From Blastocladiella britannica (taxonomy: Eukaryota; Blastocladiomycota; Blastocladiomycetes; Blastocladiales; Blastocladiaceae), in the NCBI GenBank assembly GCA_025349905.2, contig MU624581.1, forward strand, positions 1 through 47,189: DNA of 47,189 bases, given 5' to 3'. Numbering within the stretch: the first letter of the stretch is position 1; each line of letters begins with the position of its first letter. A program made the translations under genes and the position numbers. Positions 10,352-38,418 of this stretch are shown in pieces. The notes beneath the pieces were generated by a model. That model saw nothing but the letters and a program-made list of their open reading frames with translations. It did not search any database and was not told where the DNA came from.

Positions 10352-13300
10352 TTACTTTTGGAGGTACTTGTCCATGGGCTCGCCAAGGACCGCCTCCATC
10401 TGGCGCACCGTGACGCGCGTCGTGCGCTCGAGCTCCTCGTCTTCGAGGCACTCGGCGATCGCCGGCACCGTCTCGGGCAGCAGCGGGAGGTACCCGTCCC
10501 CGACGGTCTCAAACAAGCGTCCAACGACAGCCACGGCAGCGCGGCGCCAGTCCGAGACGGCCGCGTCGTCCATGACCGAGGGCTCCAGCGGCGCCGCACG
10601 GTCGTCGTCGTCGCCGGCGTCGGCGCGCGTGGCTGCCAGCACGGAGCCGTGCAGGATGCGCCACGCGTCCATGTCGTTGACGGTGACCGCCATTTGCACC
10701 AGCACCGCCGACGCGGGCTCGGTGAGCGCCGGGACACGCAGCGCCGACGTGGCGGCCCGCGACAGCCGGTCCATGTCCGCCGCCACCACCGCGGCCGTGT
10801 CGTACAGCGCCGTCTTGTGCAGCACCACCAGCGCCTGCTTGGCGGCAACCACAACTGGAGTGTTCTCAATGGGAGTGTTCTCAATGGGAGTCGCCGAAAC
10901 AAATGTCTCCACCACCGCAGCGTCGCACAGCGCCACCAGCTCGTCGAACGCCTGGCCGGCGTACGGCACCAGCAGGTTCTTGAGCGCGTCAAACAGCACC
11001 GACACCACGCCAAAGAATGGCACCGCGCGCGGCTCGGGCGCATCGCGGTACCAGCGCAGCAGCTGCGCGTACAGCGGCCGGAACAGGTCCTCGTTGAGCT
11101 TCATGACCAGCGCCACCACCGTGGTCAGCACCGATGCCGGGAACTGCGAGCGGCCCAGGATCGCCAAAAACACCTTGTTGAACACCTCAGCGTGGAACTC
11201 CTTGACCGCGTCCTTGCCCATGGCCGCGACAAAGTGACGTGCGACTTCGACCACCTGCGTGGTCTCGGCCTCGGCATCGTCCGAGAGGGACGCCACTTTG
11301 CCCGTGAGCGCCTTGATAAAGTGCCGCGGCGGGACCGTGGTGGCCATCAATGCCGCCACCGCGTCGAGCTTGCCGTGCAGCAGGTCGAGCTGTGGGCTGC
11401 TGCCGGACCCCTGGCTGGCAACGCGCACGCGCATCAGCACGTCGAGCACTTGGCCCAGGTACGGCGTCAGGAACACGTGCAGGTGCAGCACGCTCTGCTC
11501 AATGCACGCCAGCGCCGACAGCTGGTTGAGCGGCACCGACTGCTCGGCCAGGAACGCCAGCACCGCCGGCATCCACTGGTTCACGTACTTGACCGCGCGC
11601 TTGGACAGCTGTGCGATAAAGTGCGACAGGCAAACAAACGCCGACGCGCGCACCGCCGGGTTGGCGCGCGCATTGGTAATCGCCACTTGGAGTTGGGCCT
11701 TTTTACCGCTGGGCGATTTGGGACCCTCGGTGTTACCACCAACGACAATGTGCGCCAGGACCGTCGGCATGCACGCCTGGAACTCGGCGTGGTGGGACTC
11801 GCTGCCGGCATAGTGCACAGCCAGGAGCTGCAGAGCCATGAGCCCGAGCTGGAGCATTTCCGGGTCGGCACGGCAAGGCGCGTCGGTCGAGAAGATCCAC
11901 ATGACCGCGGGGAGCGCGCTCATCAGCGACCGCTGGTACTTGAGCACTGTAGACTTGGACAAGTGGCCGATCCGGTCGTTGAACATAGTCACTGCGCGCT
12001 TCTGAATCAGCAGGTTCGGGTGACGCCACAGGTCTGAGACCACCGCCAGGAACGTGGACAGCGACAGCAAGTGGTGCACCTTGTCGAGCACGCCGTACGC
12101 CAGCCGCAGCAGGTTCTTGTTCTCAGCCTGCGCTTGCACCAGGACCAGCAGCGCCTCGATAAACTGCTTGACCTCCGACTCGACCTGCGACTTGCTCAGG
12201 CTGTTGATGAATGACCGCATCATCAGGTTCTCGTCGATGAACATGAGCACGGGTGGCTGGATCTTTTCCAGCGACGACAGCGGGATTAGGCGACTGTCAT
12301 CGTCACTCTGGTGCGCGGCAGCGGAAGCGGCGGCAGCAGCGCCGCCCTTGGAACCCTTGCGGCCACCCTTGCGACCCGTAGCCGCTATGGCAGGGTCGGG
12401 CTTGGGCGCGACAGACTTGAGCGAGGTTGACGACGACGACGACTGAACGTCCTCGCCATTGCACATACGAATCAGCTGCACCATAGCGTGGAGCTGGGCC
12501 GCGACCGGGAACTCGGCCGATACCAGCAGGCAAAACTCGAGCAGCTTGACGTGCTCCTGTTCCAGCAGCAGGGCCACAATCGCGTACAAGTACTCTTCGC
12601 CGAGTGTGCGGATCAGCGTGGTGAACAACCGCAGGCGGCGGTGCACGGGAATGTGCTGGATCGCGTCCACAAACACCTGAATCACGTGCTTGACGTGGGT
12701 GACGTTGAGCAGCAGCGCCGGAATGATCTTTTCAATCGTCGACTCAATGACCGTGAACGTGTACTCGTCGTCCTGCTTGAGCACGTGCGCGCCCATGAAC
12801 GTAAAGATCGGCATCACGTTGAACAGCACCTTGTCGGCGCAGCGCGGCGCCAGCGCCGACAGCACCAGCAGCACCGAGTTGTGGGTCTGCGGGTTGTCGG
12901 TGGAGCTGATGCAGGCCACCAGCAGGTCGACGCGGAACACCGAGTCGTCGAGCCCGTCCTTTTCCACGTGCAGCAAATCCGCCAGCACCAGCTGGATAAT
13001 GTAGTCGTACTGGTTGTACGCTGGGTGGTTGAGGATCGTCTGCAGCGTCGCAAACAGCGGCGCCACCAGCAACCGGTTGTCATCCACGTCCTTGTACGAG
13101 ACGAGCTCCAGCAGCGACGTCAGCTTACCGAGCCGCTGTCGGACCATGGGCTGGTCGGCCAGATGCGCGCGCTTGTTGCTGCCCGAACCACTGCCAGCAG
13201 CAGCAGCGGCGACGGCGGTAGCCATGATCCCGAGCTTGCCCGCGTTCGGGCCCTTGGTGGTGATCAGGTGCGTAAACATGTCGACAATCACGCGCACCGA

Positions 13301-16300
13301 CACGGGGATGCGCTTCAGCACCGACTTGGCCTCCAGGACCACGTCCGAGATTTGCGACTTGCTGACAATGTTGAGAAGCACGTAAAACACGTCAAACTGC
13401 TGCTCGTGCGAGAGCGACACCCACAGCTCGGACGTGATGCGCGTGAGCGCCGCCTGCTGGACGTGCGCCAGCGCCGGCGTGCGGTACCCGTTGAGGAACT
13501 GGGTGAGCGTCTCGAGCGCGTCGGCCTGTTGCAGGATGCGCGGGGCCACCGATGGCGTCAGGCAGTGGATGAATTGCACAATGATGCGCACGCGCGGCGA
13601 GTCGACCGACTCGTCGGCCAGCGCCGAGTGGCGGGCGCGGAAGTGCGTGTGCAGCGCCAAAAAAACTTCGGGCGAGTCGACGCGCGAAAGCACCTGCAGC
13701 CACTCGGCCGCGCATGCCAGGTCCAGTTGCGGAATGTGCGACAGGAACGCCGTCAGCACCTCGCGCGACCGCTTGCGGTACGTCAGGTGCATGACCGCAT
13801 CCGCCGACGCCGCCACGTCCGACTCGAGCGCGGCCGTGAGCCACGGCGCAAGCACTTTCGGGTCGGCAAACAGCACGTCCGACGCCTTGTACTCGCCCAC
13901 GGGCGGCAGCACTTTGCCGTCGCTGCCACGTCCCTTCTTGTTTTTCTTCCCACTGGATTGCGGCACATTCGATGGAGTAGCAACAGTCGAGGCACCGGGC
14001 ATGGCCACGAGCGCAAACCGAATCACCTCCACAACAGCGTCACGGACCGCGCGGTCAGTGTTGCGCAGGCACGGAAGCACGTGCGGCAGCAGCGACTGCA
14101 CGTCCATGCTACCGGCAGGAATCGCCTCCACGGCCAGAGCAATGCGCTCGAGGCAACGGCGCACCAGGACGGCGTTTTCGCTGCGGAGGCCAGGGCACAG
14201 TCGAGCGTAAACACCAGCGCCAGTGAGGAGATCGTGGATCAGGGGCTCGGCCGCCTCAAGCATAGCATCGGGGAGCGCCAGCACGCGCATGAGCGCCATT
14301 TGGTGGTGAGCGGTGCGGTCGCTGGTCAGCGCCAGGGCCAACGCAGTTCGTGCCACATCCAGCGTCGAGTCGCCGACAATGAGATCCGTAACCGGCTCAA
14401 TTACTGCCGGCAGCTGCGCGGGCGTGGTAAAGTGGAGACCCGAGGTGGCGTAGCGGGTGTCGCGCAGCAGCGCCACCACTTCGTCGGTGGTTGGGAGCGC
14501 CGGGAGCGGCGTGTAGGACGCGGCCTTGAGCCACTCTGCGTGCGCGGCCTGCACGTGGCGCAGGTACAGCAGCAGCGTCTGGGCCGCGCCGGTCACCGAC
14601 ACGTCCTTGGTCAGGGCCGACCCGTGGTCACGGGCGACCGCCGCGGCAGCAGCCACGTGCGCTGGCGACAGGCCGACAATCGCCGAGTGCGCCACAATGG
14701 CGGCAGCGGTGGCACCGGGAGCGTGGGTCGCGGCAAAGTGGATGAGCGCGCTGCTGCCCAGGACCGCGTCGGCAATGGCGGGCATCGGGCGCTCGAGCGC
14801 ATCGACCAGGGAAAGCGCCAACTCGACACCGTCCTCGGCTGCGAGCGTCTCGAGGGCAAGGCGCGGCGACGACGTCGTCGTTGACACGTTCACTGCTGCA
14901 GCCGCGGCCAACGCGCTCTTGCGAGCCTTCTTGCTCTTGCCAGCCGGAACAGTGGCAGCAGCCGCAGCGGTGGGGATCGGTGCGGTGGCGGGAGCCAGGA
15001 GCTCGGCCAGGTGCTGGACCGCGGCAAGGCAGTAGGCGTCCTCGGGGTGGCGCATGGCCAAGAAGAGGGTGGTGTTGAGCGACTCGACGACCGAGTGAAC
15101 TGTTGTGCCGAGGCAGTGCTGCACGACGTTGAAGGCGGCGCGGCGGTTGGTGCCGGTTGCCTGGCTCAGGAACTCTGCAATCCCTGCGTCCAGCGCTGAC
15201 GAGTATTTGCCCTGCAGGCGGTGCAGGAGCGCAACGAGGTCAGCGGGCAGATCAATGGCGGCATCCGTGCTTGCGGGCATGGCCGCTTCCAGGACACCGC
15301 TGACGAGCGCCGTGATGGCGGCCGTAGGAACAGCAATGCCCGAGGCGCCGCTCACCAGCACCATCAGATCGGCGTAGCGCTTGCGAGTAACGAGCGACGA
15401 CACCATGGACATGAGCAGGTCATCGCACGAGTACCGCTGGGAAGCAGCGGCAAGGACGACAATGGCGCCGGGCACGGTGGCCAAGGCGGCGAGCGCGTCG
15501 CTGTCGCGCGGGAACTCGGGCTGCGACTGGGCCAGGGCGAGGATGGCCGTGACGGCCGGAGACACGTCGTCGGCCGGAATGCTCTCCACGAGTGCCTTGA
15601 CGAGCTCCACCAGGGTGCGCGCTGTGAAGGCGGTGCGAGCGGCCAGCTTGCAAAGCACGAGGTAGTTACTCAGGCGCCATTCCTTTTTGTTATTTTTGTC
15701 ATTTGTTATTTTTGTCAGTCTCTTCATTTTGCTCAGAGTAAAAATACAAAGACGAACCTTGTGGGCGCTCACGATCCCATCGACAATGAACGGCATGAGC
15801 AGGCTCGCGGTCTCGCTCGTGACTTGATCGAGCTTGGTCACATACGAGATGACGGTGGTGATGTAGAACGTGAAGGCGGTGTTGAAGGCATTGTTGGAGC
15901 CGACGCGATCCTGCACGGTAGAGGCGGCAAAGGTCACGAGCGACCGATCCGTCATCAGGCGACGCATGAAAAAGAGACGGTCCATGGGCTTGGCGGTCTC
16001 GACAACGCGAGCGAGGAAGCTCCAGCGTGGGGATTTGCTTTATAAACAATTGAATTGGTGAGATCAGTTGGCCGCATATAAAAGACCAGAAAGTTACAAT
16101 ACCTCAGATCCAGAGCAGTGACCATGTGCGTAAACTGCTTGCTCTCGTAGTAGGGCAGAATGCAGGCAATGACCGACTCGACATTGAATTCGTTGACGCG
16201 GAAGCGGCGAATCAGCCATTCCAGAACTTTGCCCGCGGGCTTGGCCAAAAAGTGCGGCGAAAGAGCCAGGAGCAGCGCGTGTAGGGTCTTGTCGAGCGCG

Positions 16301-16772: not shown

Positions 16773-18748
16773 ATGTCATCCGCTATTGCGCGCGGTCGCG
16801 ATTACACGACACAGGCAGACCTGCCACCACGTCCGCGCTCCCGCGCCTCCCGCTCGAGGTCACGGTCACGGTCCCGGTCGCTCTCGCAGGCGTCGCGGAC
16901 GCACCGCCGCGGCTCCAATGGGCGCGCCCGGTCACCGCAATCCTGCGCGATAGGAACACCGCTTGCGCTTCTGCCTGAGCTCTCGGTGCTGGGACACTCG
17001 TTACAGCCATTGCCTTTGACGCCCAAAACAGCCACTGGATTTGGCGTTACTGCCACCACTGCCATTCATGGAGCAGCCGAGGACCGGTTCGAGTCGCTCT
17101 CGCTGGACGACAGCGATGACAAGGACAAGGAAATGGATGACGAAAACGGAGAGAATGTGGTAGCTGAAGCGGTGGTTGCCGACAAAGACGACTACGACCA
17201 CCACCGCGTGCCCTATGGTGCGTCTTTTTTTTTCTACTGGATGTTCGTGGAACTCACCTTTTCGCTTTTGCTATTTTCCGCGACTGGTGCTGCCACTGAA
17301 TTTGGATTGTACTCTACGCTACGCTTGTCTGATTGAAATGAACCGCAGCGGACGCGCCAGCCCCTCCCGTCGAGCCTCCGTTGCCGCCTCAAAAGACACC
17401 CCAAACACCCGCTTCACTTGCTCGCAAATCGAGCTCGTCTGATCGCCGTCTCGCGTCTTGGCTCTTTGGTCCCCGATCCCCACCATCGCCCCCCTCGCCA
17501 CCAACGTCTGTAACACCCTCCAACACATCCGTGCCAATCACCCTGACTCCCTCGGCCGCCATGCGCCACCTGTCCCGCACACGCCCACCGACGCTCCCGC
17601 CCAAGCCCGCGTCAGAAGACTCCAAGCACCTGGCCGAGTACGCCAAGATGGTCGCGCACGCCGAACGTGCCGCCGCGCGCGCGGCTGCCGATGCGGCCAA
17701 ACGCGCCGCCAAACGCGACGCCCGCGCCACCAAGTCGCTGCAGTACTGGACCACCACCGTGTTGCCGCAGTGGGAGAAGCTGCGGTACACGGACAAGCTG
17801 GCGGCGCAGTGGGTGCGCGACGGGATCCCACCACGGCTCCGCGGGGTCGTGTGGCCCAAGGCTCTGGGGAACCTGTTGCACGTCACGGACGACGTGTACC
17901 GCGTGTGTGGGGCGCGCGCCGCTGAGGCCCTGACCAGTCGTCGCATGCGCGCGAGCGCCAACGGTAGCGACTCTTCATCAAGCACCGCTGCCGCGACTAC
18001 CGCCCGACCGACAACGTCAAATGGCACAGCAGCCGAAATGGTGCTGGTGGGCCGCGAGGACACGCTGGTGGTGATTCGCGACGACATTGCTCGCACGTTC
18101 CCGTCGCTGGCCATGTTCCAGCCCGAGTCCAACGGCCCGCTGGCAGCGCCGCTGGCAGCCGTCCTCGAGGCGTTTGCAGTGTACCGCGCCGACATTGGGT
18201 ACGTGCAGGGCATGAGCTACCTGTCGGCGATGCTGCTGCTCAACATGAACGAAAGCTCCGCGTTCACGGTGCTGTGCAACTTGTTCAAGCAGCCGCGTGG
18301 CGTGCTGCCGGCTTTCTACTCGCTCAACTTGCCCCTGGTCAAGTCCTACTTTGCCACGTTCGAGTACCTGCTAGGCCTGGCATGCCCAGACCTGAAACAG
18401 CATTTCAATGCCGTGGGCGTGCGGCCCGAGTTTTTCCTGTACGAGTGGTTCCTGACCATGTTTGCCAAGCCGCTCCCGCTCGACACGGCCCACCGCGTGT
18501 TTGACCTGTACTTTTTGTGGGGCGACCTGGCGCTGTTCCGCGTGGCCGTGGCGCTGCTCAAGTTCTTTGAGCCACGGCTGCTGGGCCTTCCGTTCGAGGA
18601 GTGCTTGCAGGACGTGCTGCGGTTGCCGTCGCGCATCCGCCAGGACTTTGACGAGGACAAGCTGTGGTCGATCGTCGAGTTTCTTCACCTAGACCGGGAC
18701 GTGTACCGGGCCGCATGCCGCGCCCATGGAGTGGATCCGCCCGAGTAG
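16773..18748 (+). CDS. TBC-domain Rab GTPase-activating protein, TBC1D12/14-like
   Basis: TBC proteins accelerate GTP hydrolysis by Rab GTPases on membranes. Exons 16773-17217 and 17349-18748 join in frame (VPY/ADAPAPPVE) to 614 aa. The N-terminal ~260 residues are disordered: an Arg/Ser-dipeptide stretch, an acidic patch, then Pro/Ser-rich sequence. A helical Ala/Lys/Arg segment precedes the TBC domain (about 305-600). Both catalytic fingers are intact: the Arg finger in VVIRDDIARTFPSL and the Gln finger in DIGYVQGMSYLSAMLLL. Further similarity to TBC1D12/14 runs through FLYEWFLTMFAKPLPLD and LWGDLALFRVAVALLKFFE. Human TBC1D14 acts on recycling endosomes and autophagy; recyclin-1 and ATG14 are also in this window, but they are not adjacent and no functional link is implied. 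Confidence 0.92.
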
Positions 18749-22189: not shown

Positions 22190-22544
22190 ATGATCCGCTC
22201 GACCCCTTCAACGATCCTGGCGCTGCTGGCGCTGATGCTCGTGGCCCTCGCGCTCCAGGCGCAGGCGCAATCGAGCACCACCGCGTCGAAAAGCACCACC
22301 ATCGGTTCGTTTCCCTCTTATTCAATATTTAACTCATTTGTCCCAAGTGAATCCTTTACCAAAATAAGGCCCGTTCTCAACAGTGATCGTCACGACCACG
22401 GCTACGGCCACGGCCACGACCAAGGTCACATCTACCGTGACGGCGACCAAGACTGCCCACAATCACGCCGTGGGTGCGTCTGGCCGGGATCACCTTCCTG
22501 CCGCTCTCGCCCTGGCCGCTGCCGCCGCTCTGGCAAACGTGTAA
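22190..22544 (+). CDS. small Thr-rich secreted protein, predicted GPI-anchored
   Basis: Exons 22190-22304 and 22384-22544 join in frame to 91 aa. A clear signal peptide (ILALLALMLVALALQAQA) is followed by a short Ser/Thr-rich mature part made of TATATATTK-type repeats. It ends in an Ala/Leu hydrophobic tail (LPAALALAAAAALANV) with small residues just before it, the layout of a GPI attachment signal. There are no cysteines and no known domain. It is probably a tiny O-glycosylated wall or surface protein. The intron donor is GTTCGT. It converges on the large oxidoreductase with 49 bp between stops. The family is not recognised and the call rests on composition. Confidence 0.65.
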
Positions 22545-22593
22545 CCCCTTTGATCGTATTGATTGACAAGATATGAATATATTACATTTATTT

Positions 22594-25500
22594 TCAGCCG
22601 CGGGTCCGTGACATGGACTCGCTCGGCAAAAAGAACCACTGTGGTTCGTTGCTGCGGGGATCGGCGCGCACGGGCATAGGCGGCAAGCACGCGGCATATG
22701 CATCCGCTGACATGTACGGATCGCTTTCATCGCCGCCGCCATTGTAGGTGGCCGTGGCATCGTCCTCTTGCTCGGACTGGCGGTCGCCTCCGAACCGGCC
22801 AGGATTGGACGGGAGAGAGGAGCCAAACAGACCATTAGAATCGACCGACTGTGCTAGGATCGGGTAGTAGCCAGGAATGCTGCCGGCGGGTTGCGATGCC
22901 GTGAATGGCTGCGGTGCTGCCGTGTCACCATAATTGCTGGAATTGTTTCGTTGGCCACCACCATTGCCACCAAGGACAGTGGCCGGCGGATCGGACGTCA
23001 CGGGCGTAGACAACGTCGATTTGGTGGTCATCGAGAACTTGATGGCCTTCCACTGCCAGTGTGGGTTGACGAGGTACGAGTGCGCCGGAAGGGTAATCAC
23101 GTCCTCTTCGGGCACACCGAGATCCGTCAGCAGGGAATACGTCACGTTCTAATGTGGTGCATTCCAGTCAATACATGAACAAATAGATGAAAAACAAGGA
23201 ACGAACCATAAACTTTTCCGGGCCGCAGAGAAGAATCTTTTGCGGGCGCCCATTCTGACCCTGGCGAATCCAGTCCTTGTCGGCAAGCAGCCGCTCGAGG
23301 AACGGGCCATCGACGCGCCCCCCACGGCGATCAAACCCGCGGACACCACCGGCAACCAGCGGTTCGGGTTCCTCGCGCGTGAGCAGGTACCGCAGCTCGA
23401 CTTGGTCGGGATAGGCCGCGTGCACGAGCTCAAGTGTCTCGGACCCAATCAGCGACGCCATGTTATGCGCGGCATTGACCACCGTCAGCCGCGGTTTGCG
23501 TCCAATCCACGGCGTGAGCTTGGACAGGTGAATCATACCGTCAATGCCCGTGTCGGCGTTGCGCGCAAACACCCAGCCGTTCTGCAGCGGGTGCCGAATA
23601 AACACCTTGTCGTTCAAGTGCACCGCCAGCTCGTTGGCCTTGATGGGCACGTTGGCCGCGCGCGGCCGGAGCGAGAACGTCGTTTGCAAAAAGTACCACG
23701 AGATCAGCTGCAGGTGCGGCGTCATCCCCGAGCCCACGCCGACACAGAGTAACTCGTCCCAGCATCCGTTTTGCATGGGTAGCGGCCGCTCGACGTTGAT
23801 CAAGGGGCTGCCAAACGGTCCACGAATCTTGTACTGCATCTGCCCGGGCTTGTTCCGCCGGAACTCGGTAGAAAAGAGACCATCGTTAATGCACTTGACG
23901 ACCACCTCGAATGCTGCCATGTTTCCTATTGAAATTAAATATGGATGTGAATAGGGTGCCGAATTGGCCAAGTACAAGTGTTGCAACATACCAGAACACG
24001 GAGTATAGTAGCGCGAAGTGTACTTGCCGCGAATGCGCATTTGAATCTCGACCGCTTGGCCTGGGAACAGAAAGAGGGGATCTGTTGTTATCGTTCATTG
24101 GTTTAGTCCAACGTTGCTCAAAAAAAAAAAAAGACACGGACCTTCCTCGTACAACTCGTTGGGGAACAAGAGGCAAAACTTGAGGCGGTACACCTCGGCC
24201 TCGGCCGTCGGCCCCGACAAGAGCTCCTTGGCAGTCAGTGCGTAGCGGCGGTATTCCTCCTTGACAAAGCGGTTCTGGCCCGCGACGTCGAGCTTGGCGA
24301 CCACCAGCGTCTTGAGCTTTTCCACCGCTCCGTCCGAGTGGAAATGCTGGTTCCGTGCGGCAATGATTTTGTGCCAGTCCTCTTGCAAAATGCGCGGATC
24401 GGCCTCCACGTCGCGGTTCCCGATCCCCGCCAGATCCGAGATCATCGACTTGCGGTTGGCGCTGCCGGTGGACAGGCCGACGCCGAGCTCGTCACCGGAC
24501 CGGTTCCGACCGTGCCGAGGCCGCGGTAGGGACCCGTGCTGCGGGGCAATCGCCGACGTCCGAACCTGGGGCATGTCGGTCAGCATCATGCTCGGATCGG
24601 CACCACTGCGACGACGGCGCATCGACGGTACGGCCGGGCGGTTCGCCGCTGCCGACTCTCTGGCATTGGGTAGCGAGACCCATGGGTTAAAGAGGTCCTC
24701 GTCGTACTTGGAGTTGTTGAAAAAGTCGGACGTGATGCTATTCAAGATGTTTTGAGTGAGTTCTTTTGACACGTCGAGACCAAAAAGTTAAAAAAAAACG
24801 TACTCGGTACCAAAGGACGAATACAGTACGGCCTGGCCTCCGGGGTGGCTAAACACCCACTGGTCAAGAGAAAACACGAGCCCGTTCCCGACCACCCACC
24901 GCTTACCCTCAATGACCTGCTGGTCAATGTCGCTCCAAGTCACAATCGGCAAATCGTCGGTCTTGACCACAATGATTTCGGCCGCGACTTGGCGCGTGTT
25001 GGCCTTTTGCGTGCCGTTGACCCCAACTGCACGTGTCAGGGTATCAGTGGACCCAATGGCGCGGACGCCGCGGTTGGCGGTGCTGCTCAGAATGCGCCGG
25101 GCCTCCATGATTCCGAAAAACGCGACCCAGAACGAGCCCAGAACAAAGTAGGCGATCCACCACGGCGAGCCAAAGCTGCCCGGTGTCGACACGGGATAGA
25201 CAACGTGCAGGCCCAGGGGAATGTTGACCAGGGCGGCGGCAAGGACAAAGCGGCCGAGATTGTTGTGGATCAACTTGATATAGGGGATGAAAGAATGCGT
25301 GCCGCCGACCAGCATGCGCCGCAAATTTCCAAACCCAAACAGAAGCTGGATCAGCACCAGGGTGTAGAGAATGATGCCGACGATCGAGTGTGCGCTATGG
25401 CCAGTCACAGTGACGGAAATCGAAAATCCGCCAGCGACAATGACGGCAATACCGCCAATCACTTGCAACGCGACGTGCCAGATCAACCATCCTTCGCGAG

Positions 25501-27997
25501 TTCGGGCATAGCGAGAAATCGACACTGCCGACGGGAAGATGAGGCCAAACGCGGGGAGCATGAGTATGGCGTGCACCAGCAAGGGCCCCACGAGCTGCTC
25601 GACATCCTCGAGCGAGCCTTGGCCGACCGTTCCCTCATTGGTGAAAAAGTTGATGGTGCCCGCGCCGCGATTGGAGCCGTGGAACGTGATTTGCGACGAG
25701 CCAGAGACGGTAAATGAGAAAATCATGGGCTGGGTCCCGGAGCTGACCAGCTTCTCGCGCCCGTTCCCCGGCTGGACGGGACGGGTAAACTCGATCTGGA
25801 ATCCGTTCGTCGGATCTTTACCAAAGACTTTGGAGCTGAGGACGGTGATGGGTGAAGGGCCGGCCCGGGATTGAGAAGCAGGCACGGGCCGCTCGTACCG
25901 CCCCGTGGGCTTGAGCTCGGACACGGTGACGGCGCCGGCCACATTGCGCACGAGATACATTTCCGTCGCGGTAAGCATGCTGCCCCCACCCAGCCCAAAC
26001 GCACAAAAACCGGCGTAGGCGCACTGGACAATCATGTGAAGCGTGTCGCCCGCCTCAATTGACCACGCCACCCTGTATCCAGGAGCAAACTGGCGCACAT
26101 GCGTCATGCCCGGCGGCAAGACGTCGATGCCGCCAAGGGTGGTCTCGGACCCCTGTGGGGTGATCTGCCAGATGTTGGCAGGGAGAGCGTCAACCGGCAT
26201 GGCCGCGTTGCGCACAATCACGTCCCGGAGCGACGTGGCGCGAATCTCGGCCAGGTGCGCTTCATCCAGCACGCCTGGACTTTCAAACCAGAAACGGTCG
26301 CCGTCGCGCGTCGCCTTGAACTGGGCACCGACCGATTTTGTAAACATCGGGCCGAGGTTGGTGCCGAGAATGTCGCGGGGCTCGAGCAAACCGCCAATGA
26401 GCGCGTCCACGTCATTAACAGACGGGTACGCGGCAGCGAGCGCGCTTGCAAACTGGGGCGAAATATCCGAAAACGTCTTTGGCGCCGAGAACCCAAGGGC
26501 CTGGCGCACCTCGCCGTACCGAGGAATCAAATAGTCGCGCGCGCGGAACAGGTCAAAGACAAACCCATCGAGCCCGCCGAGCTGCGGGCCAAAGATCATG
26601 GAGCGCATCGGCTCAGAGTAGTAAATATCCATCTCGTTCTGCACTTGCGTTGCGAGCCCAATGAACATGGGCTCGATGCCCTGGGCGCTCACCAGCTCGG
26701 TGCGGAAGAAGTTGGCCGCCATGTCCACCTTGACGGACTGGTTGTTGGGCGTCACGTAGCTCAGGAGCGAGGGGATTTCGCTGTGGCCAAATCGGTACGA
26801 GACGGCCGTGAAAAAAGAGTCCATTTCGGGCCGCACATTCGGGTCGTATTTGAGGTAAGGGTCGATCGGGGCGCCAAGCAGCAGTGGCTATGTATCAATT
26901 TTTTAAGGAGTGAGTTTTGTCTGTCTCTGTAAAATGTAATTACACGCACAAGGTACTCGTAGTACGTAACGTGCTGAATGATGGCAATGACGTGCTGGCG
27001 CGCGCGCTGAAAGATGCTGTCGTCCGAGGCGCCGGAATTTGCTGGGTCCTTTTTCAACGCGGCGGCATAGCGGTTGTGTTCGCGGATAAAGAGCGTAAAG
27101 AGCGACTGCGAGTAAGGGGATGTGTTTCCGACAATGGCGCCAAAGGAGAATAGGGTGCCTCGGTTGCTCGTGGTGCGAGTCTGCGATGTGTTGGTTCCTG
27201 TAGGGTTCTGTCCGTCCACCAATCCTGTTAGGTGACTTTAACTCTGTGGAGAATATCAAAAAGACATACTTCGGTGACAGTCTGGGGCATGGGACCCACG
27301 CTCGTGCTGTCAGTCTTGAGGAAGGGACCACTGCGAAGAGCCGCGGCCTGCGCGTCTGATTGGCCATAGATCTATACATATGCACTTCGTTGGTCTCATT
27401 GCCTTGGCCCACAAGAAACGATTTCGGGACGTACATGCGATCCATCGATAAAGTGAGTCTGGACATTGACCGAGAGTCGCTGTGCACTGGACAGGGAGCT
27501 ATTTACAACTGCCGCGCTGTACATATAATCTCATTTTGTTGGTAAGCACTTGCCCAGAAAAAGACAACTTGACGACAATAGTACCGAGTAAAAGACATGT
27601 TGAATCCAGGTGGAAGAAATTGGTCATTGTCGGGAACCGTCACGGAATACGTATCGCCGGGCACGCGAGAGGAAACCACATGGGCCGTGTCGTGAATGAA
27701 AAACTCGCCCCAGAACGTGTGCAATACCGTTAGCTGCCGGGCATTCGGAATGTCGCCGGTGGATCGGACCACGGTGTTGGAAACGGTGCGCAGATTAGCC
27801 AACTCGCTGCCATTAAAGGCACGCGCCGTCGGCACCTGCGCGCGCAGGTACGCCGTGTTGACCATGCCCCATGTCATATGAGCGACGTTGTTGCCCGAGC
27901 CGTCAAAGGAGCGATATTCGCCAGGAGCCACTGCTTGTCCGTAGACGGTCGCTACGGCAGCCAGGCCCAGGATCGCCAGGAGCATCGTTGTCTGCAT
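22594..27997 (-). CDS. DUOX-type peroxidase-DOMON-b561-cyt b5-reductase fusion
   Basis: Nine exons (27997-27585, 27516-27435, 27371-27270, 27207-26950, 26887-24811, 24762-24142, 24060-23992, 23925-23207, 23148-22594) keep frame throughout: 1631 aa. Domains by approximate residue: signal peptide 1-20. DUOX-like animal haem peroxidase 21-512, with distal His102 (WGEFFIHD), FIDGSHIYG, REHNR and proximal His320 (YRFGHSE). DOMON 550-700. Cytochrome b561 720-880 with several candidate haem His (TGHSAH, KLIHNN). Cytochrome b5 with HPGG (966-969) and, after a ~150-residue insertion, HFHS (1117-1120). Reductase FAD motif RYYTPCS (1201-1207), IRGPFG, and NAD motif GVGSGMTP. An SH3-like domain (1300-1346) lies inside the NAD lobe. 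The tail is disordered. Inferred role: cytosolic NAD(P)H electrons cross the membrane via b5 and b561 to an extracellular DOMON/peroxidase. Oddity: Val225 stands where active peroxidases have the catalytic Arg. The exon 5/6 junction is the least certain. Confidence 0.85.
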
Positions 27998-28293
27998 TCT
28001 TTTTTTTTGCATTTTGCGTTTTGGCTGTGCAATATAGCTCGCGGTAGTGGGCGCTATGTCAAACCAGAACCGGCCCAGCGGCTGCTTTATAAATTGAGTT
28101 AGGTTTGAACGACTTGAAGGAGCGCGAGCGTCGTCGTCGTCGTATGTGGTCGTCGAAGGAAATAATTGAATGGTCGGTGTTCGAGTATTTTTAGGGGACA
28201 AATTCATTGAATCCAATCTTCAGGTGGCGCTTCCGATATTTGACAACTCCCTGCGCAAAAAAAAACATAGACAGCGATCAAAAAAAAAAAATT
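27998..28293. promoter_or_regulatory. upstream region of the oxidoreductase gene
   Basis: 296 bp separate this start from the next stop on the same strand. A TATA-like TTTATAAA (about 28086-28093) lies roughly 90 bp upstream of the ATG on the minus strand. A GTC repeat-like stretch (CGTCGTCGTCGTCG) occurs at about 28131-28144. There is no gene. Confidence 0.4.
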
Positions 28294-28846
28294 TCAAAGA
28301 GCCAACAGCGCAACAAACATCGCGGCAACCACCGCCAAGCTGAGGGCCGCACTGTGTGCCAAGACCGAGACCGCGGCGGATTCTTGCGCTGCAGCGCTAC
28401 CATTCGCCTCACTTGGCGACACGCGATCCGGGGATTGCGTTGCCTTTGCGTCCGACGCCGAGGAATTGCCTGTGTGCGTTGGAACGACTGCTGGATTTTC
28501 ATGTGTCAGTTCCCCATTTCAGTCTTTTTTTTTTTGTTAAAAACAACATGCCGCTACTAGAGGCGACCGTGGATGGGATCAATGTCACTGGCGCTGGCGA
28601 CGGCGTTGGATCAATCAGGTGCGAACAGCGATCAAAGCACACATTCAAGGCAGCGATATCCATGACGGTTTGCTGGCAGCGGGCGGTGCATTCTTCTGAT
28701 TACCAATGGTGAGCCAATTTGTTTGACTTGACAAAAAGGAGAGCACACATACGAGCAGCAAGCGACGCGTTGAAAGCGACAGTTGGATCGCTTTGAGCAG
28801 CAACTGCAAGTACGTAAGCGAAAAGGGCAAGAAGCGGGGAGTGCAT
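28294..28846 (-). CDS. small secreted twin-CX3C protein, predicted GPI-anchored
   Basis: Exons 28846-28753, 28695-28558 and 28490-28294 join in frame to 142 aa. The signal peptide is LLALFAYVLAVAAQS. The mature N-terminus has exactly four cysteines arranged CX3C-X12-CX3C (CTARC...CFDRC), predicted as a helical hairpin with two disulphides. A Pro/Thr/Ser-rich linker follows, and a hydrophobic C-terminus (LSLAVVAAMFVALLAL) ends at the stop, as in GPI-anchor signals. Twin CX3C is best known from mitochondrial small Tim chaperones, but the signal peptide and tail here argue for a surface protein. The second donor (GTAGCG) is non-ideal. The family is not recognised. Confidence 0.62.
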
Positions 28847-29078
28847 GGTTTGGTTGGGTTTAGCAAGGTAGGGTAAATAAATCTGAAAAACCGTACAGAC
28901 TCGGCCGGGGGCAAGTTGCCCTTTTATTGCCGCGGTTTTTCCGGTTGGGGTCATTAAAAGGAAGTGGAGGTAAGAGCGCCATGTCTCATTTGGGTGGTGT
29001 CCAAGCTCAAGACACGGATCGACGGATCAAAGCACGAAACCGAGCAGGAAATAAAATGCTACTGAGACTGCATTATAA

Positions 29079-30295: not shown

Positions 30296-33200
30296 ATGTC
30301 GTTCCTCAGTATCGGCGCCTCGCGCGATCGCCAGGGCACCGCCACCTCTTTTGGCTCGTCGTCCAACTACTCGCGCAATGCCTCGGGCGCGATACCCCCC
30401 AGCGGTGGTGGTGGGACCATCCGCCTCGCCGCCTTCCCGCAGGACGTGACGCTGCGCATCCTGTCGTTTCTGCCGCTCAAATCGGTCGCGCAGCTCGCTG
30501 CCTGCTCTCGCCGCCTGAAAGTCCTGGCTTACAATGACGTGCTGTACGAGCGCAAGCTGCGGGTCTGGTTTTACACTCCTCCGTCGTCGACGGGGAATCC
30601 AACAGTTACTACTGTCGTTCCGGCAACGGCGGCGGCTGGATCGGTCGCCGCCGCCTCGCTAAAACCCCCGCCGCTCGATCCGGAAAACATTCCTCTGCAC
30701 ATTCGCGATGCATGGGCCCGTGCCGCGCCGGCCATCGCGCGCTTGAATGCCACCGACGTCTCGGCTGCTATGCCGTCGTTCATGAATATGAGCACCGGCA
30801 GCTCGAGCATTGGCGGTGGAGGTGTCGGCACGAGTGCTCGCACCGCCTTTCGCCACGTGCACGCGTTTCTGTGGCCGCTATACCGCGCATTCCGCGCTGG
30901 CCCGACCGCCGGTGCAGCCAAAATCTTGGAATATCCCGATCCCGTGGACCAGACCATGTACTTTTCGCTTGCCAAGACCTTTGGTAAGGCGGCGCTGGTG
31001 GACGACTTCAAGGCAGTTCGTTTTTTTTTTTTTTCTTCCGACTGCGTACTTGCAGCCGATCCAACAACTGACTTGCCTTCAATATTTTCAGATCAATGCC
31101 AATATCCAATCCGGTATCCAGGTGCTCGAGTCGCAGCTGCTCTCGGCATTCGATCGCCACTACGATGCCAACAACATCCAGGGCATGCAACTCCTTGCAA
31201 AGTGCCTGTTTTTTCTGACGGGCGGCGACTCGTGTGTGCAAATGTTCATTTACAAGTCGCCCATCTTTTTCGACCATGTCAAGGACGTGACGGAAAACTT
31301 TCGCGTGCTCTCGGTCGTGCAGCCTGCTCCCAAACGCGCAAACGCGAGCGCACCCACCAGCGCAACGCCATCCACTGCTGACTCGGCCATCACCTCTCCC
31401 GGTGGTGCGGCAGCGAGCGCACCTCTGGGTATGCTCATGTCGGCCGACTCTCAACAGCAACCGGGATCGCCAGGGTCAGCCACCACCACTCCTTTGCAGC
31501 GGTACCTTGACACGGTCTCTGCGACCTTGGAGACGCAGCTGCCACTAATCCGCACCGTGTTCCCGCACCCGTCGCCGTCGCAGTACGCGTTCGTCAACAA
31601 GGTCTTTGACGAGTGCATCTTGGATTACCTGACGCGTCTGCTGCGTGAAGCCGAGAAGCGCGATTTGGCTGTATTTCTCGCGTCGCTAACGCACATGTTT
31701 GAGCACTGCTCGGCGCTGCTGCGCGACCTCGCCGACCACCACGCGCTCGATGCCACGCGTCTGGAGGAAATGCTGCACAGCGTGCTCAAGCCGTTCACGG
31801 GCGAGCAGTACATGGAGCGCGAGGTGGCGTACCTTCGATCCGAGTACGCGCGGGCGCTGGACGCGTGGAGTACCGGCATTGCGTCGCGCCGGGCCGCTTG
31901 GGCTGCGCGCGCATCGCGCGGTGAAAACGTCAAGATCGCGGTCCCTGATCCCAACTTGGGCCGCCGAGTGCTTTCGGGTGTCAAGTCAGCGTTGCTGACC
32001 CCACAGGCGCTCGTGCAGCGCGTCGTTTTCCGCCAGGGGGACAAGTACGCGCCGACGCTAGCACTCACGGGCTCTCCGCCGGCCAGCCCGACATCGGCCG
32101 AAGGGCCCGGAAGCGGTTTTGGACCCGGGTCGCCCGGAGGTGGTGTGGTATCGCCTGACGGCACGCGCCAGGATGGGTTTGACCAGCTGGATTCGTTGCT
32201 GAGTGTGGATCTGGTCATGGCCATGATTGCGCAAAACAAGGTCAGTCTGAAGCGTTGCGTGGTCATGATGAAGCGTTCTGGCGATGTGTATGTTTTATTT
32301 ACTATTTATTTGTACGTCGCGATTTCTCACCAATGCCTGTACTTTTGTGCAGCAAAAAACACGTCGAGCGGCTCTTTGCGATCCTTGCCCAAACTGCAGG
32401 CGAGAAGCACATCCGGCCATCCTTTAACATGTACCTATCTTGTTGAACAATCGTTGGAAGTGCCAATTTTGCTGACGCATTGATGAACTGAATCCAGCGC
32501 AACAGAGCGGCTCTCATCCTATAAGGCGTCCGAGGATTTGGAAGTGCTGCCGCTGATTCAGTTCTTTGCCATGATCCAAGTGGTGGACGTGCTCTTGCAA
32601 ATGGTCCACCTCTATTTTACCGAGGAGCTGGTTTGTATTTTTCCTTTCATTTATGGAGGCAGAGTCTCTGAACATTTAAATTACAGGCCAACTACGTGAA
32701 TCTCAACGATTTCTTGAGCGACTCGATCCAAGAAAAGAAAAAGTTTGAAGCGCTCATTGACGACAGTGTTGCCAGCGGCCTCGACCGTGCGATGCTGACG
32801 CTCATGTCCCAGACTGAGTTTCTGCTGTTCACGGAACAACACCCGACCGATTTCGAGCCACCAGAGGATATCATGACCGACACCCGGCCCACCGACGCGT
32901 GTCGGATGTCGGTCGCATGCTTGGAGAAGCACATTGAGATGCTTCGGGCCTGCGCCGAAAAGAACATTCTGAACGTGTTCTTGGCCGAGGTTGGGTCGCG
33001 GTTCTTTACTGTCTTGTCCAAGCATATCAAGCGGCAGCGAATCTCAGTCGTGGGCGGGTTCCGGCTCATGTGGTTTGTTTTTTTCTCCTTTTTCTTTTAT
33101 GGCCCATGCATTGACAACACCAAAAATATAACAGCGATGTCAACTCCTACTATGCGTGGTCCGAGTCGCTGCGCAACCCAGAAGTGATCCGCATGTTCAA

Positions 33201-33407: not shown

Positions 33408-35167
33408 TCAAATCAGTCCCTCGCTCTTGACAAGGCACACGCGCGGCTCCAGCTTCATAAACCCGCCCAGGCCGCCCCACTTGACCGCGAACGGGTACTT
33501 GTCGGTCATGTTGGTTGCGGCGGTGCCGTCAACTTGGATCGGGCCAACCCAGGCGCTGATAGCACGGCGCAGATCCACGCCCGCAAACCCATCAAAGCAC
33601 ACAGCCTTACCGGCGAGAGCATGCGCCTCGGCCTCCGCCAGTCCGGCGTCGCGCACCCAGTCGTCAAAGGACGTGAACCGAGCATGGAACCGGCGCGGGC
33701 TGGCGCGAGCCGCAAACGACAAGCCCTCGGACTTGTCGTAGTGCACGCGGTCGGTGCGCTCCAAAAACCGCGACGCGCCGGTCTGCGCCGTGACCACGTC
33801 GATATGCAGTGCCACTGGGCCTTGGGTCGGATCCACGATCGACGTGCACCGCGGGTCGGCACGCTGCACGCACCGCAACGCGTCGCCGCCCGGGTAGTTG
33901 TGGGCCGAGGCCGCGGACATGGCCACGCTGACGGCAGCCGAGGCGGCCAGCGACCCGAGAACCGCCACGCGGACCACCCGCCGCAAAGGTTTCCAGCCAG
34001 TCCCAGATGACGACCAGGTCCATACGCGCGCCATGGCCACTCCGGCCGCGGCGTTAGCGATGGGTACCGCGTAAATCACGAACCGCGCCTCCTTGTGTGG
34101 GAGCAGCGAGTACGCAATCACAAACAGCGATGCGGCCGTGGTCAGCACGCGGAGTCGCGGCGCAGTGGCAGCCGACGCCGCACCCAGGACCGCCCATGGA
34201 CCGGCACCCAGGAGCATCTTGGGCACGTGCAGCGTCAGGTAGGCGTGCCAGGGGGCCACGCCCCACCGGTGGCTCTGGTTGGCGACGGTATTGAACAGCA
34301 GCACGTTCAGCTCCGGCCAAAAGCTCTCGCGCTGCCAAAAGTACGAGTCGACGGTCACGGTGGCGGCCAGCGACAGTGACGCAAAGAGTGCCGCGGGGAC
34401 CCAGAATCGAGCGCGCGTTAGGTGAACCGTTCCGCGCGCAGCTTCCAGCAAGTACAGCGGCACCGCGAGCAACACCAGCTCGGACCGGAACACGATCCCC
34501 GCCAGCGCAAACAGAGCGGTGGTGGCGTCCGGCATTTGCGCGCGCTGCGATCCTGGCCGCAGAAAGAAGGCGATCGCGTACGTGACCAGAATCAGCGCAA
34601 ACGTGTTGGGTAGGGGCCGCGATCCCCAGAACGGCAGGTGGAACTGGGTCGCACACGCCAGGAGAAAGAACGTGGCCGAGTGCCGGGGGTACGATGGGCT
34701 GCGCAGTGATTGGGCCACCGCGAGCAAGCTCAGAGCGAGCCCGCTGCCGAGAGCCAGGCGTGCTATTTTACATTATATTAGTTGGTGCATTTGTACAATT
34801 TGAAAAAAGCACCGTACTGCCAAGGAGCATGGCATATTTCTGATCCACGAGCGACCAGCGACCGGATGCCTCGAGAAGCAGGCGGATCGGGTACAGGACG
34901 GAAGCAATGGACAGGGGACCGAGGAAGGTGCGCGGGACGACGCCCGGAAACTCGAGGTGGTCGTACTGGAGTTACTGCAACATCATTTTTTTAGTCAAGG
35001 ACTGGACGAATGGAAATAGAAGGGAAACGGACCGCATCGATGTTGGTGCCGTGAAACAAGAGGTCGTGGGTCGCCTGGGTATTGAACGACTCTTCGACCT
35101 TGGTGTACGGCGCGAGGAGCGCGTGGGCGGCGATGGCGGCGACGAGCAGGATGAATGCCTTGATCAT
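33408..35167 (-). CDS. ALG12: ALG12 dolichyl-P-Man alpha-1,6-mannosyltransferase
   Basis: ALG12 is an ER multipass GT22 enzyme that adds the eighth mannose (alpha-1,6) to the dolichol-linked N-glycan precursor in the lumen. It is about 540 aa in three exons. The first junction gives [20 protein letters not shown], and the second, near 34749-34815, gives LLGT/RLALG. Signatures are [21 protein letters not shown] followed by [16 protein letters not shown], the ALG12-specific N-terminal block with the lumenal acidic residues, and [10 protein letters not shown], the HKEXRF motif of the family. Multiple hydrophobic helices and a non-membrane C-terminal domain complete it. The start ATG begins an N-terminal hydrophobic helix ([14 protein letters not shown]). 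The first intron donor is GTCCGT. Convergent with RCY1, divergent from the ubiquitin gene. Confidence 0.92.
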
Positions 35168-36394: not shown

Positions 36395-36869
36395 TTTGTT
36401 GTTTTTTGTGGGTGGTTGGATCGGATTGTGTGGTTGATTTGCTGTAAAAATTTGAACTGTGTGAGAAAAGTTGAAATACTGGCGAAATTCCCATGCAGTA
36501 GAAATATCACGACATGATTCTTGCGCGCACGGGCGGTGGGTTGGTACTGTGCCATATGCTCTGGCATACACCGGCACACCCACACGCACAGGAGCAAATA
36601 TTGTCGTGGTATACGCGGCCCGGTGGCGCAGCGCAATCAAAACGAATTTCAAGGAAACCGCACCTTGCGAGCTGGCAGCAAATGTCGGGATATGGATTGC
36701 AAAGGAGAGTTGGCCTCGTTCGTGCTGGAGTTGTCCAAAGAAGTGTAAAAAAAAAAAATGGTTTTCGATATTTGAAGAGAATACACGGGCAGGTGGCGGT
36801 GGCGGAAAATATTCAGATTTTATTCGGATCCTTTCAAGTATTGCTCACGTGGAGAATATTATTCAAAAT
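36395..36869. promoter_or_regulatory. 475-bp divergent intergenic region, G-gamma / SERINC
   Basis: Short ORFs occur on both strands but none has recognisable content or codon structure. It probably contains both promoters and 5' UTRs. An A-run of 12 lies at about 36748-36759. No TATA box or repeat stands out. Confidence 0.4.
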
Positions 36870-38418
36870 ATGCCCTCTTCTTGCCTCATACCATCCGGAT
36901 CGGGAACTGGGTGCTGCGGTTGCTGCTGCGGCCTCTCGTTCTCTGGTCGCCTTTGTAAGCTGCTCTGCTGCTCCATTTCCGTTCGCAGATCGATCGTCAC
37001 AAGGCTCCTGTACAGCGCTGGTTTCTTGCTCGTTGGTGCCATTGCGCTCGGCTTCCAGTACCTCTTTCTCTCTCCAATCTATCAAATATAAAAGCCGGAC
37101 CTCACGGATACGACAAAATGACAGCTTTTCCAATCCGGATCTTCCTCTATCGCTGACTCCAGCGTCCGCTCTAGCCAATTGCACGAGCCGCGCCTGCTTT
37201 GCGCTCCTTGGCGCATTTCGAGTCATACTTGCCAACGCATTGTACCATGCGCTCCACATGATCCTGCTCGTTGGTGTGAAATCGACGCGGGATCCAAGGG
37301 CATACATTCAAAACTCGGGATGGCTCATCAAGGCAGCTGTGCTCGCTGCGATCATGGTCGGTTTATTCTATGTACCTGCTTCCGCCCTGACTGCCGCGCC
37401 GGTTGTCAGCATGGTCTTTGCGACCTTTTTCTTGTTTCTGCAAACCTTTCTGCTCGTGGATTTTGCTCACTCCTTTGTACGTCGACCTTTACGCTATATG
37501 AATGAAAAAAAAAAAAAGCGATTGATTTCTTGATTGAATCAGGCCGAGAAATGCATCTCCAAGCACGAGGAGACCAGCGGCATGATCTGGAAGTGTGCGC
37601 TGATTGGTGGGTCCGTCGCGTGCTATTCGGTCATGTTTGCCGGCACGGTCCTGCTCTATGTCGCGCTCGCGCCGAATGCCACAAGCAGCGCAACCACACA
37701 CCCTTGCTGGGCAAACCAAGCCCTCATATCAGTGCACTTGCTCCTGACCCTTGTGCACACGGTGCTGTGCGTCCATCCGCGCATCCGCGAAGCAAATCCG
37801 CGGTCAGGACTGTTCCAGTCGGCGATTATCGCCGTGTACACGAGCTATCTCTTGGTCTCGGCCCTCGCCACGGACCCGTTTGGGTGCACTGCGGGTGGAA
37901 GCTCTCTGCTGCCTGGGTCCCACAGCTCAGCATCACTTTCCAGCGGATCTTCGGCACTTGCGCGCGCCGCCACCATTGCAGGAGTGGTGTTATCCATGCT
38001 ATCGCTCGCGTACTCGGCGCTCGACACTGCGTCCAACGATTTCTTTCTTCCACCACCACTGACCGCGTCGCAGACGGTCGGGTGTGCAGCCGCGGTGGTG
38101 GATGGATCGACAGAGGGCGTGCTGGACGATGCCGCGTCGGTGCTGAACGATGAGGCCAATGCCACCGCGTACTCGTACTCGTACTTTCACACCATCTTTG
38201 CCCTTGCCACGTTTTATCTCGGCGTGATCATCACTGGGTGGGTCGCATCGGTCGACGACGCTGCGGCTGTGGGCGCCGTGTCCGGGTTGGGAGCGGCGGA
38301 GACGGCGGGGGTCGCGCCAGCAGTGTGGGTCAAACTCGGATCGGCCGGCGTGGTGATTGTCCTGTACTGCTGGACGCTTTTGGCGCCGCTCGTGCTTCCT
38401 AACCGCGACTTTACTTGA
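36870..38418 (+). CDS. TMS1: SERINC/TMS1 family membrane protein
   Basis: SERINC proteins are 9-11-helix membrane proteins linked to phospholipid scrambling and, in some reports, serine incorporation into lipids. Exons 36870-37057, 37125-37476 and 37543-38418 join in frame to 471 aa. The N-terminus has the family's Cys cluster (GCCGCCCG, KLLCCS), probably palmitoylated. It continues with RLLYSAGFLLVGAIALGF, then SRACFALLGAFRVILANAL. The strongest family blocks follow: TFLLVDFAHSFAEKCISK, PRSGLFQSAIIAVYTSYLL, SALATDPFGC and YSYFHTIFALATFYLGV near the C-terminus, then TGW and WVKLG. Human SERINC5 restricts retroviruses, but that role cannot be inferred here. The second intron donor is GTACGT. 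Confidence 0.92.

Follow-up and report, generated by a model that had tools for sequence, protein, structure and literature searches.

A predicted fusion gene of Blastocladiella britannica joining a peroxidase-like domain to a DOMON, cytochrome b561, cytochrome b5 and reductase chain

Gene structure and domain content

The window analysed here is the whole stretch of 47,189 nucleotides that makes up positions 1 to 47,189 of contig MU624581.1 (forward strand; assembly GCA_025349905.2) of the flagellated fungus Blastocladiella britannica. At 22594..27997 its minus strand appears to hold a single gene, here called the fusion gene (C42), for a protein of 1,632 residues in which a signal peptide is followed by an animal-type haem peroxidase domain, a DOMON domain, a cytochrome b561 core, a cytochrome b5 domain and a flavin adenine dinucleotide (FAD)/NAD reductase. 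All coordinates of its parts given below refer to the minus strand of the window. A preliminary description of this DNA had proposed one continuous nine-exon frame, and the present model agrees with it. A single frame runs from the ATG at 27997 to the TGA at 22594 through exons 27997-27585, 27516-27435, 27371-27270, 27207-26950, 26887-24804, 24737-24142, 24081-23992, 23925-23207 and 23148-22594, separated by eight introns of 58-68 nucleotides, all GT-AG. The model is based on in-frame splicing, the GT-AG introns and base composition; the exons have a guanine-plus-cytosine content of 60% (74% at third positions) and the introns of 32-48%.

Exon 5 (26887-24804) is 2,084 nucleotides long. The frame used contains no stop codon; the remaining two frames of the strand have 17 apiece. 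It encodes, without interruption, the peroxidase domain from residue 286 onwards, the DOMON domain, the b561 core and the first half of the b5 domain. Since a single uninterrupted frame within this one exon leads from the middle of the peroxidase to the middle of b5, it is very unlikely that the locus holds two separate genes. Possible gene boundaries had been suggested at 24.7-24.8 and 26.9 kb; the introns at 24.8 and 26.9 kb cut inside the b5 and the peroxidase domain, respectively, which upholds the reading as one gene.

The splice sites given are those of the best model. An initial version ended intron 6 at 24061. It was dropped for an end at 24082, with a gain of 7 residues, since three paralogues (see below) keep a motif, (E/Q)EPxF(F/L)xPGH, that is lost by the other choice. 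Translation could also begin slightly further upstream, at another in-frame ATG only a few codons away.

Domains were called by a Pfam scan of the 1,632-residue model with the family cut-offs applied. The families An_peroxidase (PF03098; E=5e-107), FAD_binding_6 (2e-8), Cyt-b5 (1e-7) and Cytochrom_B561 (2e-5) were over their cut-offs, and DOMON (7e-5; 23.4 bits with a cut-off of 32.7), DUF2427 (6e-4, overlapping b561) and SH3_1 (0.12) were under theirs. Among the NCBIfam models only PaaE gave a match below 0.001 (6e-5, far under its cut-off, on exon 8), the others being weaker, and the viral contigs scanned gave no match. Together with hydropathy and motifs, these results recover every domain that had been named previously. 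The earlier list lacked three features: an SH3-like insert, an apparent split in the b5 domain and the missing catalytic Arg of the peroxidase. The view that the transmembrane chain is free of NOX parts is also borne out, as Ferric_reduct, FAD_binding_8 and NAD_binding_6 were all unmatched. The predicted signal peptide covers residues ~1-20 (27938..27997), with a hydrophobic stretch at residues 5-23.

Peroxidase-like domain

The peroxidase domain comprises residues 28-515, encoded by exons 1-5 (26198..27916); PF03098 matches in the genome are confined to three exons of the fusion gene. According to a passage of PMC4420034, the active-site motifs of such enzymes are GQxxDHD and RxxE, and an Asn holds the proximal His. 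Residues at these positions were counted in an alignment with 45 of 48 bacterial loci (three being omitted for partial coverage) and five PDB chains, of which the lactoperoxidase row starts past the distal His, so that counts on the distal side refer to four PDB rows. Of the features of an active peroxidase, both haem His residues are present. The distal one is His102 (27692..27694), a position that is His in 44 of the 45 bacterial rows and Ser in both DUOX1 rows; the proximal one is His320 (26783..26785), where His is found in 45/45 bacterial and 3/5 PDB rows and Ser again in both DUOX1 rows. The Arg, the ester Asp and Glu, the Gln and the Asn are absent. Val225 (27130..27132) replaces the catalytic Arg of RxxE, which is invariant in the bacterial (45/45) and PDB (5/5) rows, and Thr228 replaces the ester Glu. 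Furthermore, Glu98 stands for the Gln, Ile101 for the ester Asp and Asp397 for the Asn; Asp103 is kept. Val225 is not a splicing error because its position is inside exon 4, away from the splice sites. A reading with Arg138 as the catalytic Arg and a competent pocket was dropped, as the RxxE motif (PMC4420034) places the Arg at position 225. The domain is thus probably no classical peroxidase, its pocket having decayed.

The human and mouse DUOX1 domains present a different picture. They keep the Arg and have Ser at both His positions, the reverse of the fusion protein, and they also lack the Gln, both ester acids and the Asn. Judged from the alignment, some losses are common to the two pockets and the key losses are different.

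The preliminary description regarded the domain as specifically DUOX-like, with a similarity extending into the RDGDRFWFE region. This is not supported. Closely similar stretches occur at that region in lactoperoxidase, 8s6c and peroxinectin A, and the PDB scores over the domain were 221 bits for 8s6c (deposited as lactoperoxidase) and 215 for peroxinectin A, compared with 166 and 159 for DUOX1, 146 for lactoperoxidase and 121 for myeloperoxidase. When a piece of 410 residues starting near residue 117 was used, peroxinectin A ranked first, followed by 8s6c, lactoperoxidase, DUOX1 and myeloperoxidase. A tree of 51 rows (45 bacterial, five PDB and the target), in which the eukaryotic comparison rows are PDB chains only, paired the fusion peroxidase with DUOX1 (93/58) and flagged a meeting of long branches. 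Constrained trees joining the target to peroxinectin A or to lactoperoxidase, or joining peroxinectin A to DUOX without the target, were no worse (P values of the approximately unbiased test, p-AU, 0.50, 0.52 and 0.56), and the placement of the target was unsettled when the DUOX rows were removed. The best hint of kinship with DUOX is a stretch, FGAxxGNxxPxxQxL, common to the target and DUOX1. Overall, the domain does not appear to be specifically DUOX-like, and the trees leave its place unsettled. In all 48 bacterial loci retrieved with a six-pattern scan, the match was confined to the peroxidase and did not go past residue 254 of a 699-residue query.

DOMON and cytochrome b561

The putative DOMON domain lies at residues ~556-697 (25652..26077), the PF03351 match covering residues 556-670. 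Met589 and His688 are its likely haem ligands, of the same types as in HYP1, an Arabidopsis CYBDOM protein. It is followed by a predicted five-helix b561 core at residues 717-881 (25100..25594), assigned from PF03188 (residues 723-845), hydropathy and a check of the four His residues 724, 756, 785 and 826.

As described in parts of PMC10784544, HYP1 passes electrons from ascorbate across the membrane to ferric and cupric substrates outside, by a proposed path of three b haems; its b561 His residues pair 1-3 and 2-4, and its DOMON ligands are a Met/His pair. The residues modelled there as binding ascorbate, P302, R307 and N311 (PMC10784544), correspond to G814, I819 and K823 in the fusion protein. 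Their absence agrees with a switch of electron donor, from ascorbate to the on-board NAD(P)H reductase.

Two stand-alone DOMON-b561 open frames occur elsewhere in the genome (C147 and C100).

A probably divided cytochrome b5

The first part of the b5 domain comprises residues 935-989 (24710..24940), with His966 in an HPGG motif and intron 5 within it, and matches positions 1-55 of the 74 in PF00173. After it come about 120 variable residues and then HSDGAVEKLKTLVVAKL, in which a (V/F)H(S/T)xxA site is common to the family formed with the three paralogues. The second part would thus be residues 1113-1130 (24287..24340), past an insert of ~120 residues, with His1113 as the probable second axial ligand. 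In an ungapped rank test against the second halves of five ordinary b5 domains, this site had the best score among the 1,616 windows of C42, and the corresponding sites were best among 878 windows in C228, 812 in C104+C265 and 759 in C227, hence top rank in four of four family members; the reference domains were from the same genome, the pattern had been spotted beforehand, no shuffle control was included, and the four members are related and not independent. A profile of the b5 second half chose the site in three of the four members, weakly (best domain E 0.16), and a position elsewhere in C42. Pfam found a b5 match in none of the four second-half pieces. The domain looks complete and split by an insert, and the second axial His is probably His1113. 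The initial count, a b5 domain without a second His, was dropped on the shared (V/F)H(S/T)xxA site.

Ordinary HPGG b5 domains are found in C315, C253, C287, C136 and C46. Those of C287 and C136 are the most like the split half, and we take them to be b5 tails of fatty-acid desaturases.

Reductase and SH3-like insert

FNR-type reductases are marked by RxY(T/S), GxGxxP and CGP motifs. All three are present in the fusion protein, as is FAD_binding_6. The FAD lobe occupies residues ~1172-1248 (23807..24163; exons 6-8), with RYYTP at 1202 and PF00970 over 1178-1248. The NAD(P) lobe, residues 1271-1468 (23089..23740), is assigned from motifs that are similar in the paralogues, GVGSGMTP at 1271 and CGPEKF at 1442, and has intron 8 within it.

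Within this lobe, past the GxGxxP helix and ahead of the strand that follows it, all four family members carry an insert of about 45 residues, in the fusion protein residues 1306-1348 (23507..23635), with V, NGW, N, L, L and PW as invariant positions. SH3_1 scored just under its cut-off in C228 (9e-5; 22.5 bits, cut-off 22.9) and 0.12 in the target alone; the other two members were not listed. A profile of the four members matched 94 PDB chains, the best being NAP1-binding protein 2 (E=4e-5), and the best 60 of these 94 are all SH3-bearing by name except 5c53 and 6nnb. The SH3 assignment holds at the level of the family and does not extend to the target sequence taken by itself. Foldseek on the SH3-like piece returned no match at E<=0.001; its top rows were SH3 domains at E>=0.16, with unrelated folds mixed in lower down, a predicted-structure outcome that is no more than consistent with the assignment. 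The insert is a candidate regulatory site. Two NOX homologues of Naegleria have an SH3 domain within the NADPH domain, as stated in a passage of PMC3591440.

Paralogues and origin of the fusion

Three paralogues combine b561, b5 and an FAD/NAD reductase: C228 (894 residues), C104+C265 (828 residues) and C68+C227, with a contig gap between the two pieces. In C104, b561, b5 and the FAD lobe lie in one open frame of 697 residues. FAD_binding_6 was over its cut-off in all three reductase pieces; the b561 family was so only in C68 (E 0.03 in C228 and 0.17 in C104+C265), and the b5 family only in C104+C265, with C228 just under. The remaining b561 and b5 assignments are carried by alignment with C42. 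The family also seems to share, by eye, a C-terminal W(F/L)(F/Y) motif (residues 1619-1623 of the fusion protein; 22624..22638), which reads WFFLP in the fusion protein and C227, WFYQP in C228 and WLYFK in C104+C265. In C228 and C104 the third b561 His aligns with Gln, which would leave one haem short of a ligand; C42 keeps all four.

No peroxidase or DOMON match was found by Pfam in the four paralogue pieces scanned, C227 being covered for 571 of its 775 residues. An open frame close upstream of C104, presumably MOB1, leaves little room there for front domains, and C68 has its own signal-like start, by eye. C228 adjoins a contig end, and a lost front part is possible. With three paralogues lacking a peroxidase match, the b561-b5-reductase chain can stand as a unit. 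The simplest history is probably that a peroxidase and a DOMON domain were joined to a member of an existing b561-b5-reductase family.

NOX-type open frames are present apart from the fusion gene (C191, C306 and C131, the last with an EF-hand match under cut-off), none with a PF03098 match. C131 and C306 have ~500 residues before the ferric reductase core, and they are possibly NOXC-like or unclassified chytrid NOX proteins.

Proposed function and alternatives

We favour, with moderate confidence, the view that the fusion protein is an NAD(P)H-driven trans-plasma-membrane electron exporter whose peroxidase-like domain handles the product or partner at the outlet, and which resembles DUOX in layout only. 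The protein would reside in the plasma (or secretory) membrane as a flavocytochrome that carries electrons outward. What the sequence shows directly are the domains and ligand residues of the predicted protein, and the paralogues; its splicing, topology, electron order, acceptor and regulation we infer from there. Hydropathy predicts five helices after the N-terminal signal, which would put the peroxidase and DOMON domains outside and the reductase inside. Electrons would pass from cytosolic NAD(P)H to FAD and the cytosolic b5 haem, then to the inner and the outer b561 haem and to the DOMON haem outside. Outside, they might be taken up by oxygen, by ferric or cupric ions or by haem in the peroxidase-like domain. 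This domain most likely serves for haem binding or docking and deals with a superoxide or peroxide product or a partner, and regulation could be exerted via the SH3-like insert of the NAD lobe. Candidate ligands or motifs are found at every station: RYYTP, GVGSGMTP and CGP, His966/His1113, the four b561 His residues, and Met589/His688. A route from NAD(P)H through b5, b561 and DOMON to the peroxidase had been put forward in the preliminary description. It is plausible as far as DOMON; the working peroxidase at its end is weakened by Val225 in place of the Arg. The electron wire stands on firmer ground than the final destination of the electrons.

A number of observations weigh against this reading. 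The DOMON match is under the Pfam cut-off, and the spacing of its ligands is 99 residues, compared with 84 in HYP1. The second b5 His goes back to a pattern that was noticed first and tested after. The Pfam scan of the fusion protein found no NAD_binding family, including NAD_binding_1, and AlphaFold2 run without an alignment gave no usable model (pLDDT 34.5 for exon 8 and 56.1 for the SH3-like piece). Peroxinectin A, too, has Ile where the ester Asp would be, so that this loss is by itself no mark of inactivity. Finally, C228 and C104 are fused to a reductase and keep, by eye, an Arg at the offset of HYP1 R307, so that the loss of this Arg is not tied to having a reductase.

Other functions can be considered for the same set of modules. 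The protein might be a CYBDOM-type metal reductase that exports its electrons to ferric or cupric ions, and the peroxidase-like domain, lacking haem and a redox role, might be a scaffold or a substrate-binding cap. HYP1 provides a precedent (PMC10784544), and the loss of catalytic and haem-ester residues from the pocket and the paralogues without a peroxidase match point the same way; however, His102 and His320 are kept, which would be needless in a haem-free cap, and the DUOX1 domain, described as inactive in PMC4420034, has Ser at both positions. This alternative is unlikely, though worth keeping in mind. The two His residues and the full electron chain would equally suit an intramolecular NAD(P)H peroxidase, the ecto-domain of which reduces H2O2 with electrons delivered via b5, b561 and DOMON and so protects the cell surface. 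A further point in its favour is Asp397, which occupies the Asn position next to the proximal His. Such an activity is made improbable by the substitution of Val225 for an Arg found in every bacterial and PDB row.

Two further explanations concern origin. It seems quite improbable that the protein is a true relative of DUOX by descent of the peroxidase domain, its NOX core having been swapped for the b561 chain. The grouping with DUOX1 in the tree and the FGAxxGNxxPxxQxL stretch are what this explanation has in its favour, and it has to contend with the higher PDB scores of peroxinectin A and 8s6c, with groupings with peroxinectin A or lactoperoxidase that are no worse, with His and Arg losses that differ and with a placement that is unsettled without the DUOX rows. 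A wrong joining of neighbouring genes, or a chimera of the assembly, is hardly to be expected, given that exon 5 is one open frame from the peroxidase to b5, that introns lie within domains and that the b561-b5-reductase order is common to the paralogues; what could feed such a doubt is that the gene model comes from sequence alone and that, in an assembly of 624 contigs, some paralogues are cut at contig ends.

Comparison with known systems

As in DUOX, a PF03098 domain with a decayed pocket follows a signal peptide and is combined with a haem core in the membrane and, on the predicted cytosolic side, with an FAD/NAD(P)H reductase. The N-terminal position typical of DUOX is thus found here (5e-107, with a signal-like start), and a location outside the cell is predicted. 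In contrast to DUOX, the fusion protein has no Ferric_reduct, FAD_binding_8, NAD_binding_6 or EF-hand match in the Pfam scan, and uses b561, b5 and an FNR-type reductase, plus DOMON. With peroxinectin A, which we take to be a Dictyostelium protein, and with the bacterial peroxidase-cyclooxygenase superfamily, it shares the peroxidase domain over its full length and the highest sequence scores, and with peroxinectin A also the Ile at the ester-Asp site; these proteins differ in keeping the Arg and, in nearly all, the Gln, Glu and Asn. CYBDOM proteins such as HYP1 have the same order of a signal peptide, a Met/His DOMON (here under cut-off) and a five-helix b561 with four His residues. They differ from the fusion protein, which has a peroxidase in front and b5 and an FAD/NAD reductase behind, and in which the modelled ascorbate residues of HYP1 are not kept.

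Other transmembrane reductases offer partial parallels. The NOX homologues of Naegleria gruberi have an SH3 domain inside the nucleotide lobe, but on a NOX core, and the passages of PMC3591440 that describe them do not name peroxidase, DOMON, b561 or b5. Ferric reductases of Naegleria, Albugo and Phytophthora have an outside DOMON on a transmembrane reductase that is a ferric reductase domain and not b561; no peroxidase is named for them in those passages (PMC3591440). Fungal proteins that combine a peroxidase with P450 have been reported (PMC10629195, in part). A description of the full architecture was not found in the literature searched, with subscription journals mostly and the protein database outside its scope, and the earlier statement to this effect stands. 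As far as seen, the fusion is provisionally a new combination of known modules.

It may be, and we propose this only tentatively, that the DUOX layout evolved twice, the second time in a flagellated fungus, where a b561-b5-reductase family gave rise to it without NOX parts. If this is true, decay of the pocket in both proteins, with different key losses, would imply that some role other than peroxidase turnover maintains the fused domain. The role of the inactive peroxidase-like domain of DUOX was called obscure in a 2015 review (PMC4420034, in part). An independent protein of the same layout would be a natural comparison for DUOX, and features kept by both could hint at the purpose of the domain. 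Furthermore, b561, b5 and DOMON would form, in one chain, a complete wire from NAD(P)H to the outside, while HYP1 is fed by ascorbate instead. The SH3-like domain in the nucleotide lobe parallels that of Naegleria NOX and would be a trick already known in another reductase.

Genomic surroundings

The assembly comprises 15.26 Mb and also contains Zn2Cys6 domains (five matches), a chitin synthase and a radial-spoke protein (one locus), a set that speaks for a fungus with flagella, probably an early-diverging one of chytrid-like type. A DNA pattern for EF-1alpha had no match. In the window, two short gene-like stretches flank the fusion gene, both recognized by eye. The one at 22190-22545 (plus strand) has a signal-like start, is rich in Ser and Thr, and lies tail to tail with the fusion gene, apparently ending ~50 bases from its stop codon. 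The other, at 28278-28860 (minus strand), just upstream and on the same strand as the fusion gene, would encode a short secreted-looking protein with hydrophobic ends and several Cys residues. Farther away, an open frame of 1,895 residues at 10355-16039 (minus strand) matches HEATR1 repeats, BP28CT and U3snoRNP10. The other neighbours with Pfam matches are a TBC RabGAP (17342-18745, plus strand), Sec10 (30792-32480, plus strand), an Alg9-like mannosyltransferase (33411-34772, minus strand), Serinc (36502-38415, plus strand) and a pyridoxal phosphate (PLP)-dependent enzyme (44720-45784, plus strand).

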